A program made the translations under genes and the position numbers. Shown piece after piece: positions 2,807 to 29,298 of a DNA stretch of 30,625 bases. Location of the stretch: positions 1 through 30,625 of the IMG/VR virus record IMGVR_UViG_3300027770_000191; one strand, given 5' to 3'. The notes under the pieces are model-generated. The model had not been told where the DNA came from. It ran no database searches and worked only from the letters and a program-made list of their open reading frames with translations. This DNA is from a virus. Position 1 is the first letter of the stretch; each line of letters begins with the position of its first letter.

Positions 2807-3276
2807 AATTTTGGATATTTAATGCCGTTATCTACAATTATATTACCAATATCAATTTTTGTTTTTAATTCCTTCCATCCTGATTGCGATTTTTGAAAGT
2901 GTGGCGCATCTTTAAAAGTTTTCCAATCACCGCCCCATTCCCAACCGTTGTTTTTAAAATAGGTTGCAACTTGAATCCAATATTTGTTAACTTCCCAACT
3001 TGCAGTCTCAAAAGTTCCATCGCCATTTTTATCATATAACAAAACAATATCAAAAGCTAATCCGTAATTGTGTATTGATTGCCAAGAATCAGCTCTTGTT
3101 ACCCTTGGGCGTTGCAAAAATATACGATGTTGTTCTTCAGGGGATCTGAATACTGAGCTAAATCGTAAACGTACATTTGCAGGTAGCTTGTTGTTTATTT
3201 CTTTGTATTGTTGCAATAAACTATCCCTAAGAATAGGATGAGCTTGCGTAATTCTTTGTAATGTGATGTTGTCCAT
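2803..3276 (-). CDS. M15-family L-Ala-D-Glu-type endopeptidase endolysin
   Basis: A 157-aa zinc peptidase of family M15, the fold of VanY and phage T5 endolysin, which cuts peptide stems of peptidoglycan. The zinc motif SIHNYGLAFD (67-76) supplies H69 and D76; APHFQ supplies the third ligand H126, with the nearby WEWGG segment in the place of the catalytic Glu region. There is no signal peptide, so release by the holin is expected. DKNGDGTFE (about 82-90), between the zinc motifs, looks like an EF-hand calcium loop, as known in T5 endolysin. It is preceded by a terminator, so its expression may be set separately from the holin genes. Confidence 0.9.
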   Translation of the reverse strand: MDNITLQRITQAHPILRDSLLQQYKEINNKLPANVRLRFSSVFRSPEEQHRIFLQRPRVTRADSWQSIHNYGLAFDIVLLYDKNGDGTFETASWEVNKYWIQVATYFKNNGWEWGGDWKTFKDAPHFQKSQSGWKELKTKIDIGNIIVDNGIKYPKL

Positions 3277-3300
3277 AATTGTTTTTTTTGTAAATGTATA

Positions 3301-3333
3301 AAAAAAACCCTTGCTTTTACAAACTAAGGGTTT
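3301..3333 (-). terminator. Rho-independent terminator upstream of endolysin
   Basis: AAACCCTT (3305-3312) pairs perfectly with AAGGGTTT (3326-3333) around a 13-base loop. On the - strand the stem runs straight into a T run ending near 3301. It lies between the 114-aa membrane protein and the endolysin, so late transcripts would be reduced or stopped before the endolysin unless antitermination occurs. Confidence 0.75.
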
Positions 3334-3366
3334 AAAACAAAAATATTAAAACAAAAATTATCAAAG

Positions 3367-3374
3367 CAAATATA
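3367..3374 (-). promoter_or_regulatory. Candidate -7 promoter element ahead of endolysin leader
   Basis: TATATTTG on the - strand matches the Bacteroidota -7 element TAnnTTTG and is identical to the three + strand promoters of this phage. No TTG sits at the expected distance upstream, so it is weaker. A transcript from here would start near 3360 and meet the terminator at 3301-3333 before the endolysin. Confidence 0.35.
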
Positions 3375-26651: not shown

Positions 26652-26899
26652 ATGCAAAAGAAAGAGCTGCTAACTATATGCGCTTAAAAAGTGGTTATGA
26701 TCAAAGATTTAATTATAAGCCATCAAAAATTATAGCGCTTGAATTATATTTTATATTCAGTTATGGCGTTTCAGTTGGTGCCGTTGCCTATCAATTAGGA
26801 ATGAATAAAGCTCAACTAAATAGAATAGTAGATGAATGGCAAAATAATAATGGTTATTTAATAATAGAATCAAAAATAAATTTGGATATTAAAAAATAA
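26648..26899 (+). CDS. Possible HTH protein, 83 aa
   Basis: An 83-aa protein with a basic start (MNAKERAANYMRLKSG) and a helix-turn-helix-like middle: SKIIALELYFIFSYGVSVGAVAYQLGMNKAQLNRIVDEW (about 26-64), where GAVAYQLGMNKAQLNRIV reads like a recognition helix pair. It may control the next promoter, P2, whose -33 element lies inside the last codons of this gene. It is the last gene before that promoter. Confidence 0.55.
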   Translation: MNAKERAANYMRLKSGYDQRFNYKPSKIIALELYFIFSYGVSVGAVAYQLGMNKAQLNRIVDEWQNNNGYLIIESKINLDIKK

Positions 26900-26911
26900 G
26901 TATTATATTTG
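26882..26911 (+). promoter_or_regulatory. Promoter P2
   Basis: TTG (26882-26884), 19 bases, TATATTTG (26904-26911): the same elements and spacing as P1. The expected start, about 7 bases after the final G, coincides with the first base of the leader hairpin at 26918. Confidence 0.8.
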
Positions 26912-26917
26912 CTTAAC

Positions 26918-27002
26918 AATATCGGTCAGGATATTTAAAAAAACATTAATAGTTCCTGACTTTGCCTATACTGACCTATGGGATTTAAGTCAGGGATTTT
27001 TT
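26918..27002 (+). ncRNA. Structured leader RNA / attenuator L2
   Basis: Hairpin 1 is AATATC (26918-26923), loop GGTCAG, GATATT (26930-26935). Hairpin 2 is CCTGACTT (26955-26962) with AAGTCAGG (26987-26994), and an inner stem CCTATA (26965-26970) with TATGGG (26977-26982, one T-G pair) closing the loop CTGACC (26971-26976). The two loops are exact complements and can form a 6-bp kissing pair. In addition GTCAGGA (26925-26931) can pair with TCCTGAC (26954-26960), which would break hairpin 2. Six T bases follow, so hairpin 2 is also a terminator. The result may be a short RNA or regulated read-through into the recombination genes. Confidence 0.6.
26955..27002 (+). terminator. Intrinsic terminator inside leader L2
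   Basis: An 8-bp perfect outer stem (26955-26962 with 26987-26994) plus a 6-bp inner stem, followed by T at 26997-27002. It sits between P2 and the 56-aa gene, with no gene before it, so it can act as an attenuator. Confidence 0.65.
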
Positions 27003-27012
27003 ATTTAACAAT

Positions 27013-27183
27013 ATGAAAAATACATTTTTAGAATTTTGCAGGGAAACAATGGGATATACATTCCATAGCAAAAAAACAGGTTATCAAGTTTACAAATTTG
27101 AGCTTTATTGGAGCGGATTAAGTCCAAAGGAATGCTTTGAAAAATTTGATAGTAAAGTAATTGAATTTAAAAACATTTATTAA
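27013..27183 (+). CDS. Small hypothetical protein, 56 aa
   Basis: ATG at 27013, TAA at 27181-27183. The 56-residue product (MKNTFLEFCRETMGYTFHSKKTG..) is mixed, with aromatic residues and two Cys, and resembles no family I know. Its start overlaps the stop of a 12-codon ORF (26978-27016) lying in the leader RNA. It is followed by the ERF gene 2 bases downstream, so it belongs to the recombination unit. Confidence 0.6.
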   Translation: MKNTFLEFCRETMGYTFHSKKTGYQVYKFELYWSGLSPKECFEKFDSKVIEFKNIY

Positions 27184-27184
27184 G

Positions 27185-27691
27185 ATGAAAAATATTGCAA
27201 CAGCTTTATTAAAAGCACAAACAGAAATGAGCAATCCAAAGAAGGATGCAACTAACCCATTTTTTAAATCAAAATACGCTGATTTAAATGCAGTTCGGGA
27301 AGCGGTTATACCAATACTTAACAATAATGGGATTGTTGTATTACAGCCGATTAAAAACATTGAAGGTAAGAACTTTGTAAGTACAATTTTAATGCACGAA
27401 TCAGGCGAAATGCTTGAAAGTTTTACAGAAATAGTATATAACAAGTTAAATGATGCGCAAGCTCAGGGATCAGGGATAACTTATGCAAGAAGATACGGGC
27501 TTCAATCATTTGTTTGCGTTGGCGCTGATGATGATGATGGCAATAAAGCAAGCGCTCCAGGTGATATTAACATCGCAAAGTTAAAAGCTTGCAAAACTAT
27601 AGATGAACTTTCAAAAGTGTTTAAATCTATAAGCAACCCTTCAAAAGAAATAACTGCATTAACTGTTGAACTTAAATCAAAACTATCATAA
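27185..27691 (+). CDS. erf: ERF-family single-strand annealing protein
   Basis: A 168-aa protein taken from the ATG at 27185; the upstream in-frame ATG lies in the preceding gene. The N-terminal two thirds carry ERF family features: IATALLKAQTEMSNPKKDATNPFFKSKYADLNAVREAV (residues 3-40), VLQP.., the strand FVSTILMHESGEML, and the glycine-containing GSGITYARRYGLQSFVCVGADDDDG. ERF proteins form rings on ssDNA and promote annealing, for example to circularise phage genomes. Neighbours are an SSB and, further on, NinG. The C-terminal 40 residues are a short helical tail. Confidence 0.88.
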   Translation: MKNIATALLKAQTEMSNPKKDATNPFFKSKYADLNAVREAVIPILNNNGIVVLQPIKNIEGKNFVSTILMHESGEMLESFTEIVYNKLNDAQAQGSGITYARRYGLQSFVCVGADDDDGNKASAPGDINIAKLKACKTIDELSKVFKSISNPSKEITALTVELKSKLS

Positions 27692-28137
27692 TGGGACAAT
27701 CAGCAAACATATTTTTACAATTAAAAGAAGATGAAATGCTACAAATGTACGATTCAACTTTTACAAAAAAAGAAGCTATATTAACAGGCAAACGAATGGT
27801 TGATAATGTAATTGAAAATGGCTTAGTAGGTAAGCATGAATTTATGACTACACTTGTACGGTTAAAAAATGTAATTGATGCTGCAGAAAGTGAAATGCGT
27901 AATTTATTGCCATGTGAAAAAGTAACTATTAACGGGGTTGAATTTAACCCTGTTGATGGTGGCAATACAATCAATTATGCTGATGATGAAATATACGCTA
28001 CTTTAAAAGCCGATTTAGATGCAAGGGTTGAATTGCTTAAGCTTGCGCAAAAACAAACTATAATTGATGCTTATGGTAACGATGTGCCAAAAGTTTCAAC
28101 AACGCCAAGAAAATCATCGATAACAATTAAATTTTAA
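27691..28137 (+). CDS. Recombination-associated hypothetical protein, 148 aa
   Basis: A 148-aa protein, mostly helical in the first 75 residues (FTKKEAILTGKRMVDNVIENG, FMTTLVRLKNVIDAAESEMRNLL), then a short strand pair TINGVEFNPVDGG and another helix ending in a basic tail with PRKSSITIKF. It overlaps ERF by one base and precedes the SSB gene, so it probably helps in recombination or replication. Similarity to Gam- or Gp157-type helper proteins is possible but unproven. Confidence 0.6.
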   Translation: MGQSANIFLQLKEDEMLQMYDSTFTKKEAILTGKRMVDNVIENGLVGKHEFMTTLVRLKNVIDAAESEMRNLLPCEKVTINGVEFNPVDGGNTINYADDEIYATLKADLDARVELLKLAQKQTIIDAYGNDVPKVSTTPRKSSITIKF

Positions 28138-28141
28138 TATT

Positions 28142-28471
28142 ATGGAAATTACAGGATCAGTTAAATTAATCGGGCAAACCGAAGAAGTGGGAACTAATGG
28201 CTTTACAAAAAGACTATTAGTAGTAACAACGAATGAGCAATATCCTCAGGATTTGCCTATTGACTTTGTTAAGGATAAAACATTCTTATTAGATTCTTTT
28301 AAAATAGGGGATGCAGTTACTGTTGGAATCAACTTAAGGGGATCTGAATACAAAGAAAGGTATTATTTAAACGCTCAGGGTTGGAAAATTAACAAAGGTG
28401 TTAATGATATATCAGTTCATAATGCTAAAGTTATTGAAGTTATTGAAGTTGATGATGATTTGCCCTTCTGA
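28142..28471 (+). CDS. DUF3127-type single-stranded DNA-binding protein
   Basis: A 109-aa OB-fold protein of the DUF3127 type: MEITGSVKLIGQTEEVG, then strands with RLLVVTTNEQYPQDLPIDF, a long turn FKIGDAVTVGINLRGSEYK and YYLNAQGWKI. The C-terminus is acidic and ends DDDLPF, like the tip of bacterial SSB that binds partner proteins. It probably coats ssDNA during phage replication and recombination. It stands next to the ERF gene set, and the next promoter (P3) follows its stop. Confidence 0.85.
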   Translation: MEITGSVKLIGQTEEVGTNGFTKRLLVVTTNEQYPQDLPIDFVKDKTFLLDSFKIGDAVTVGINLRGSEYKERYYLNAQGWKINKGVNDISVHNAKVIEVIEVDDDLPF

Positions 28472-28505
28472 GAAAAAACAAATTTAAAATTATTAATTAA
28501 AACAT

Positions 28506-28534
28506 TTGATTTAATAAAATAATTTGTATATTTG
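28506..28534 (+). promoter_or_regulatory. Promoter P3
   Basis: TTG (28506-28508), 18 bases, TATATTTG (28527-28534). It is the third + strand promoter with an identical -7 element. The expected start lies near 28541, at the foot of the leader hairpin. Confidence 0.75.
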
Positions 28535-28541
28535 CATTGTA

Positions 28542-28629
28542 GTTAGCGTCTCACAATATACCTAACGTAAGAACTTAAACAAAGTCCTATAATGAAACCA
28601 AGTGAGACGGGTGGATTTATGGGACTTTT
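28542..28629 (+). ncRNA. Structured leader RNA L3
   Basis: Hairpin 1 is GTTAG (28542-28546) with CTAAC (28562-28566); its loop contains GTCTCAC (28548-28554). Hairpin 2 is AAAGTCCTATAA (28581-28592) with 28617-28628, 12 bp with one T-G pair, including the same CCTATA/TATGGG stem as L2. Its loop contains GTGAGAC (28602-28608), an exact complement of the first loop, so a 7-bp kissing pair is possible. The 3' T run is weak (TTTTGCTTT), so termination here is less certain than in L2. The 176-base gap between the SSB and initiator genes is otherwise non-coding. Confidence 0.6.
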
Positions 28630-28647
28630 GCTTTAAAATTATATAAT

Positions 28648-29298
28648 ATGGCTGAAAATAAAAAATCATTTGTACTTTATAGCGATAGTCAAGGGTTAAT
28701 TAATCAATTACCTGATGATGTTGCAGGGCGTTTATTTAAACACATTTACGCTTATGTAAACGATGAAAATCCTATAGCTGATGAATTGCTTTTAAACATT
28801 GCTTTTGAACCTATTAAGATGCAATTAAAACGTGATTTAATTAAATGGGTTGATATAAAAGAAACAAAATCAAATAATGGTAATTTAGGTAATTTAAAAA
28901 GGTATAATATAGATTTATATGAAAAGGTTTTATCTAATAATATTACATTAAAAGAAGCAATAGAACTCGCAAAAACTCGCAAAAACTCGCATAGCGATAT
29001 TGTGCCATCGCAAGACATCGCAAAACTCGCTGTTAATGATAATGTAAATGTAAATGTTATTAATAAGATAGAATCACGCTCCCAAATTTTTAAAGATAGT
29101 TTATTAGAATATAAAAATAAACATCAGGTTAATATGCTAAAGGAATTTTATAACTATTGGACTGAACCAAATCAAAGCAAAACTAAAATGCGTTTTGAAT
29201 TAGAAAAAACTTGGAGCTTAGATCGTAGATTAGAAACTTGGGCAAAAAGAGAAAATTCATTTAATGTTAAACCACAAATAAAACAAGATAGGTTATGA
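28648..29298 (+). CDS. Replication initiator candidate (DUF6291-like N-terminus)
   Basis: A 216-aa protein. The N-terminal 70 residues (KKSFVLYSDSQGLINQLPDDVAGRLFKHIYAYVND and FEPIKMQLKRDLIKW) resemble the DUF6291 domain found in Bacteroidota phage replication proteins. A variable linker (about 75-135) covers an iteron-like DNA array. The C-terminal helical part has MLKEFYNYWTEPNQSKTKMRFELEKTWSLDRRLETWAKRE (about 160-200), typical of replisome-organiser proteins. It likely binds the array within its own gene and recruits the helicase or ATPase encoded downstream, as with lambda O. It is driven by P3 and overlaps the next gene by 4 bp. Confidence 0.7.
   Translation: MAENKKSFVLYSDSQGLINQLPDDVAGRLFKHIYAYVNDENPIADELLLNIAFEPIKMQLKRDLIKWVDIKETKSNNGNLGNLKRYNIDLYEKVLSNNITLKEAIELAKTRKNSHSDIVPSQDIAKLAVNDNVNVNVINKIESRSQIFKDSLLEYKNKHQVNMLKEFYNYWTEPNQSKTKMRFELEKTWSLDRRLETWAKRENSFNVKPQIKQDRL
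28965..29030 (+). repeat. Iteron-like array, candidate replication origin
   Basis: TCGC occurs at 28967, 28977, 28987, 29008, 29018 and 29027, plus an inverted copy (GCGA) at 28994, so the spacing is about one helix turn. Most copies are part of (A)CTCGCAAAA or CATCGCAA. AT-rich DNA flanks the array on both sides, with tandem GTAAAT-type repeats just downstream (29042-29056). An array of this kind within an initiator gene is the layout of lambda ori. The encoded residues (KTRKNSHSDIV..) lie in a variable linker. Confidence 0.55.

Follow-up and report, generated by a model that had tools for sequence, protein, structure and literature searches.

The window, a stretch of 30,625 nucleotides forming the virus record IMGVR_UViG_3300027770_000191, contains two 5′ leaders built on one plan: a promoter, a hairpin at the start site, and a second, terminator-like hairpin whose apical loop is complementary to that of the first. 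As dozens of phages infecting Flavobacterium and its relatives have the same architecture with unrelated loops, both elements are almost certainly real and represent an apparently undescribed regulatory RNA switch. The best reading, at a probability of about 0.55, is that each is the leader of an early phage gene and acts as a transcription attenuator.

The two leaders of the window

The features of the two elements and their neighbouring genes, read from the sequence, are as follows.

26881–26911, + strand: promoter of element 1, with TTTG near −33 (26881–26884) and −7 box TATATTTG (26904–26911)
26918–26935, + strand: hairpin 1 of element 1, stem AATATC/GATATT, kissing loop GGTCAG (26924–26929)
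26936–26950, + strand: linker of element 1, 15 nt, A-rich, including AAAACATTAATA
26951–27002, + strand: hairpin 2 of element 1, an intrinsic terminator; stem-loop 26951–26998, six T 26997–27002
27013–27183, + strand: small ORF of 56 aa downstream of element 1, followed by the ERF recombinase gene (27185–27691)
28142–28471, + strand: single-strand-binding protein (SSB, DUF3127) gene upstream of element 2
28527–28534, + strand: −7 box TATATTTG of the element 2 promoter
28542–28566, + strand: hairpin 1 of element 2, stem GTTAG/CTAAC; the loop holds kissing segment CGTCTCAC (28547–28554)
28581–28634, + strand: hairpin 2 of element 2, terminator-like with a weak U tract; stem AAAGTCCTATA/TATGGGACTTT (28581–28628)
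28648–29298, + strand: gene for DUF6291, a phage replication-module protein (Pfam PF19808, phrog_19415), downstream of element 2

The original prediction had placed two leaders here, each with a promoter, a start-site hairpin and a second hairpin, and these coordinates hold in a sequence check. The complementary loops, unrelated in sequence between the two leaders, are likewise present, pairing over 6 and 8 bp. The start points require correction: the flavobacterial sigma-A box TAnnTTTG sits at −12 to −5 (PMC9723704), and the predicted starts therefore fall at the foot of hairpin 1, at 26916 and 28539, two bases upstream of those first given.

In element 1, hairpin 2 consists of an outer stem, an internal loop, the inner stem CCTATA/TATGGG and the loop CTGACC (26971–26976), which is complementary to GGTCAG over 6 bp. 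The linker just spans a stacked rod of hairpin 1, kissing helix and hairpin 2, and the U-run ends 10 nt upstream of the ATG (27013). In nested RNA folding, the two hairpins together are the minimum-energy structure (z −3.9). As a separate observation, the loop-1 sequence occurs again in the outer stem of hairpin 2 (26925–26931 and 26954–26960), and GTCAGGA could pair with TCCTGAC in the style of a classical antiterminator, a feature special to element 1 and its close copies.

In element 2, hairpin 2 has a purine-rich internal loop and bears the kissing segment GTGAGACG (28602–28609) in its apical loop; the loop pair is complementary as predicted, but over 8 bp, one more than the 7 claimed. Hairpin 2 had been regarded as a terminator in element 1 only. 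The six T of element 1 agree with this, but element 2 is terminator-like too, with a weaker U tract (TTTT GC TTT). The nested fold of element 2 is unremarkable by itself (z −1.0), so its support comes from comparison: covariance model R1, made from other phages with the kissing pairs omitted, matched it at 28530–28625 (32.4 bits, E 0.0019).

The stem CCTATA/TATGGG is shared by both leaders, as claimed, but it is the inner stem in element 1 only and forms the upper outer stem in element 2. In L002 and L003, close relatives of element 1, hairpin 1 is unchanged and the inner stem of hairpin 2 reads CCTGTA/TACAGG with pairing retained, indicating that the shape of the stem is conserved rather than its letters. 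For the same reason, a search of relatives for the literal CCTATA/TATGGG stem returned only the window and chance matches.

Conservation of the loop pairing and anatomy of the element

Several lines of evidence (blind loop tests, covariation and a natural leader swap) strongly support the proposal that selection acts on the structure while the loop sequences are free to vary. The first sample comprised 66 IMG/VR loci with a gene related to that of the neighbouring ERF protein. At each TANNTTTG site the best first hairpin and the best terminator were chosen with loop complementarity ignored; 12 of 70 candidates had complementary loops of at least 6 nt, whereas 200 permutations gave 0.55 on average and never more than 3. 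A wider set of 123 promoter–terminator units contained 56 kissing leaders, versus 2–5 after shuffling of the upstream stretch. Kissing scored generically, with no terminator demanded, showed only mild enrichment (93 versus 61), and for this reason terminators and strict scores were used later.

A third detector, which did not require a U-run, was applied to 20 larger IMG/VR contigs, the window and four isolated phages. It returned 34 sites with scores of −22 or below, versus none in shuffled controls over 2,234 promoter-like sites; these correspond to 31 distinct elements, and, many sampled phages being related, the site counts do not represent independent events. One of these elements (L183), within coding sequence, is probably a chance match. 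T-runs of at least 5 were present in 21 of 28 distinct elements versus 9.7% of background stretches, and this enrichment of a feature that the detector did not require identifies hairpin 2 as a predicted terminator. Across 24 phages, 27 different loop pairs were found.

Covariation was assessed in one sub-type, for which IMG/VR was scanned with the outer stem alone (ATCCTATC...GATGGGATTTTT). The scan yielded 17 contigs, all with the loop pair and 16 with the exact TANNTTTG box. In the alignment of 15 leaders of this sub-type, all eight kissing pairs are formed in every leader and four of them have changed on both sides. Counting the structure as a whole, 12 pairs are double-changed versus 5.2 in shuffles, and the covariation score was matched by none of 500 shuffles. 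The signal is lost when the partner is shifted by one to three bases. At the same locus, the sister isolates morran9-1 and lillamy9-1 have GTGAGAAG/CTTCTCAC and GTGAGACG/CGTCTCAC, respectively. The sub-type covariance model without kissing pairs did not find element 1 at E ≤ 1; element 1 belongs to the group by its architecture, not by this model.

The natural leader swap is seen at element 2. Over the stretch that begins at the end of the SSB gene and includes the promoter, the window is identical to L207 (the contig of L002) and nearly identical to L208 (the contig of L042). The three diverge completely at the start site, where GTCTCAC/GTGAGAC, GTGCAT/ATGCAC and TGGTGG/CCACCA leaders begin, followed by three different genes. 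The shared promoter and the break at the start site indicate that the leader has been exchanged together with its downstream gene, not with the promoter.

The anatomy was compared in 46 distinct elements. Leaders are 72–105 nt long (about 85 nt in the window), and the base of hairpin 1 lies at a median of 5 nt past the −7 box, which corresponds to the start site. Linkers are 13–45 nt (median 20) and, in an estimate from simple lengths (2.8 Å per pair, 6 Å per nucleotide), span the stacked hairpin 1–kiss–hairpin 2 rod in 44 of the 46, in many barely, with the remaining two short by 5–12%; linkers that are just long enough fit the prediction of intramolecular kissing. Hairpin 2 usually has a purine-rich internal loop. 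In one sub-type this loop is AGTA/GAA and, by eye, resembles the sarcin–ricin (loop E) motif; the resemblance is seen in L002, L004, L011, L027, L041 and L208.

An ORF starts 9–49 nt past the terminator in 43 of the 46 elements, with an intervening promoter in two of these. The genes served include those encoding DUF6291, other replication proteins, helicases and a 70–80 aa protein of unknown function, as well as apparent HNH and GIY-YIG nucleases (judged by eye from N-termini). Weak U-runs are found in element 2 of the window, in FCV-1 (CTTAACTTTTT) and in L004, suggesting that not every copy of hairpin 2 need terminate well. Where one phage has two leaders, their loop pairs share at most 3 nt in eight of nine comparisons, which is only suggestive of orthogonality within a phage; in G003, the loops of the two leaders could cross-pair over 6 bp.

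Attenuation and its alternatives

The promoter-like box, two hairpins, terminator-like 3′ end, covarying loops, constrained linker, pre-gene position and leader–gene exchange are seen directly; from these we infer that transcription terminates at hairpin 2 and that kissing alters the efficiency of termination. An attenuator has an intrinsic terminator between a promoter and its first gene, which is the arrangement found, and makes a regulated choice between termination and read-through, which is predicted for these leaders. The original prediction had offered a cis-acting attenuator or antitermination element and a pair of small phage RNAs side by side. The former is favoured by the terminator 9–49 nt before the ORF and by the swapping of leader and gene as a unit, and the latter is less likely as the main role.

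Transcription would begin at hairpin 1, which would fold first. About 50 nt further on, the loop of hairpin 2 would emerge from the polymerase and become free to base-pair with its counterpart in hairpin 1. Hairpin 2 would serve as an intrinsic terminator directly ahead of the start codon, and the kissing state at the moment when the polymerase meets the U-run would determine how often transcription stops, leaving a leader of about 85 nt, and how often it continues into the gene. Only loop complementarity would matter in such a device, so that loop sequences would be free to drift and to differ even between two leaders within a single phage.

Other interactions that might act on hairpin 2 were sought. 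Pairing of an upstream segment with the 5′ arm of the terminator, as in a classical antiterminator, averages 4.0 nt versus 4.4 nt in shuffled sequences and is not conserved, reaching 7 nt only in element 1 and its L002 copy. Antisense promoters are not conserved either, with eight antisense TANNTTTG boxes in 46 leaders versus three in a control stretch, and a third copy of the loop sequence is no more frequent in the phages than expected (127 versus 144). As kissing is the only conserved interaction able to influence hairpin 2, the best reading is that read-through depends on kissing.

In the favoured sub-model, kissing in cis would strain or delay the terminator and allow read-through, and free terminated leaders would compete in trans for the loops and restore termination, giving a dosage brake without a protein, akin to plasmid copy-number attenuators. 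We lean to hindrance of termination by kissing for two reasons: the linker often barely suffices once hairpin 2 is completely closed, and free terminated leaders competing for the loops would then provide protein-free negative dosage feedback. Such feedback by the terminated leader is a possibility only. The full form of this idea, an RNA dosage sensor of virulent phages in which the terminated leader is a trans competitor for the loop pair of later transcripts through a private loop code, is tentative. Each early operon would in that case gauge the concentration of its own leader via a freely evolving code, and phages sharing a code could cross-regulate in co-infection.

An unlikely alternative to attenuation is that the element is an independent small RNA of the phage, about 85 nt long, acting in trans or binding a host factor, with kissing serving a compact, stable fold. 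Exactly this arrangement of promoter, start-site hairpin 1 and terminator is that of a small RNA, and the tight range of lengths (72–105 nt) would suit it. However, the terminator lies 9–49 nt ahead of an ORF for which, in 41 of 43 cases, there is no further promoter; leader and gene are exchanged jointly; and the loop sequences match the phage genome no more often than expected and are too variable to target a fixed host RNA.

It is distinctly unlikely that the element is a put-like antitermination RNA, in which the complex of kissing hairpins would bind the transcribing polymerase and let it pass both the terminator of the leader and later ones of the early operon. The put sites of phage HK022 (putL and putR) form two stem-loops near the start of early transcripts, putL just downstream of PL, and act in cis on transcription; they need a specific sequence and work on terminators at least 10 kb away (PMC9378689). 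The element has in common with put its origin in a phage RNA, the two stem-loops, a similar size (about 70 nt in put) and the position at the start of an early transcript, and the purine-rich internal loops of hairpin 2 suggest a specific three-dimensional fold. Nevertheless, the original prediction was right to cite put as a precedent of layout only: put hairpins modify the polymerase for downstream terminators, which they suppress by way of its β′ zinc-binding domain, and are not themselves a terminator, whereas here hairpin 2 carries a U-run, the loop sequence is free and no sequence core is conserved across sub-types. In a term search, kissing is not mentioned in the paper on put structure (PMC9378689).

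A role in 5′ mRNA protection or translation, with the fold shielding the 5′ end, the U-rich tract aiding ribosome binding and termination incidental, appears highly unlikely. Hairpin 1 starts at the predicted 5′ end, hairpin 2 ends near the start codon and some U-runs, e.g., that of FCV-1, are weak, but terminator-type U-runs are strongly enriched, and loops that drift and yet stay strictly complementary are not obviously needed for this role. Finally, the complementary segments can hardly be DNA operators with accidental RNA hairpins: complementary loops are also inverted repeats in DNA to which a repressor could bind, and repressors are present in some related phages, but the segments lie in apical loops of hairpins with covarying stems, their 45–75 bp spacing lacks helical phasing (|R| 0.19) and a U-run follows.

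Distribution and relation to known leader RNAs

Isolated phages with the element are Flavobacterium phages 11b, elemoA, elemoB, morran9-1, lillamy9-1 and FCV-1; in Cellulophaga phages phi13:2 and phi19:3 it is recognizable by eye, with a weaker hairpin 1. A blastn search that took one leader as query had matches in 156 Flavobacterium phage records, some of them partial. The SSB (DUF3127) gene is the syntenic anchor in morran9-1 and lillamy9-1, where the element lies between this gene and replication/primase genes, as in the window, and the DUF6291 homologue of the elemo phages is annotated as 'replication protein'. Hairpin 2 was also considered as the end of the upstream operon; this was rejected, as an ordinary terminator is already present upstream of the promoter in morran9-1 and lillamy9-1. 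Of 23 loci in a sample anchored on the SSB gene, six were recognized by the detector as carrying the element, L208 and L227 were added by eye, and most of the remaining loci have no such promoter there. Other long hairpin or terminator structures, in which a kissing pair is not obvious, follow the SSB gene on its 3′ side in L224, L219 and L209.

An exact-pattern search for sub-type A in 85,000 bacterial and archaeal species gave 59 pattern matches, none with promoter and kissing under strict filters, and all were judged to be chance matches. A covariance model found the searched sub-type in 0 of 200 Flavobacterium genomes and in 4 of 4 phage records used as positive controls. The element thus belongs to phages, apparently virulent ones, the negative result in genomes applying to the searched sub-type. 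No named RNA family had been recognized in the original prediction, and there is no relevant match in Rfam 15: at E ≤ 5, the window gave only a weak unrelated match elsewhere, and 15 related loci gave none. Searches of the open-access literature likewise gave no description of such an element.

In the best reading, the known kind to which the element belongs is that of leader attenuators, within which a kissing-terminator leader is apparently undescribed. Guanine/purine riboswitches have intramolecular L2–L3 kissing loops in a leader, coupled to a terminator. The present element differs in that no ligand-binding core is conserved across its sub-types, the terminator hairpin itself bears one of the kissing loops and Rfam gives no match. 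P4 CI RNA and P1 c4 RNA are short RNAs that act in trans in prophage immunity. They resemble the element in having complementary segments in phage leaders, a link to premature termination and sequence-divergent types within one architecture; unlike these, the element has its partner in cis, and copies of the searched sub-type were not found in bacterial genomes.

Plasmid attenuators of the pT181 type work with an antisense RNA and with an antiterminator segment able to pair to the stem of the terminator (PMC4878617). A leader terminator before a replication gene, an outcome set by kissing (predicted for the present element), orthogonal loop pairs and interior loops in the hairpins are common to both systems. 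In the present element, however, the complementary loop is in the same transcript, and neither antisense RNA nor antiterminator is conserved.

Little is known about gene timing in phages of Bacteroidota, and the element provides a compact RNA switch that is widespread and can be tested in phages whose hosts (Flavobacterium and Cellulophaga) are in culture, its specificity residing in loop complementarity only. Its variants form a ready set of orthogonal parts and allow a clean test of whether kissing from an upstream hairpin can control a terminator. Families defined by structure with drifting sequence evade searches of the Rfam type.

Some further loci deserve mention. On the minus strand of the window, a promoter-like TATATTTG (3373–3366) lies before late genes, and a strong terminator (AAACCCTT...AAGGGTTTTTTTT) lies ahead of the next ATG (3276–3373); a kissing first hairpin was not found there, and this may be a leader terminator of another type. 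In L146, L154, L077, L004, L080 and L152, the element precedes apparent free-standing homing endonucleases (GIY-YIG, NUMOD4/HNH), suggesting that the leader may travel with selfish genes. The leaders of the 70–80 aa 'MAKFELKFLD...LDKSTAIKFAKTLRTEI' family (L002, L004, L203 and L204) have a conserved stretch, approximately AATAGTTTATAGGTAATCTTAAAACCTTTATTATAATG, from terminator to ATG, which could form a third small hairpin (AGGT...ACCT).
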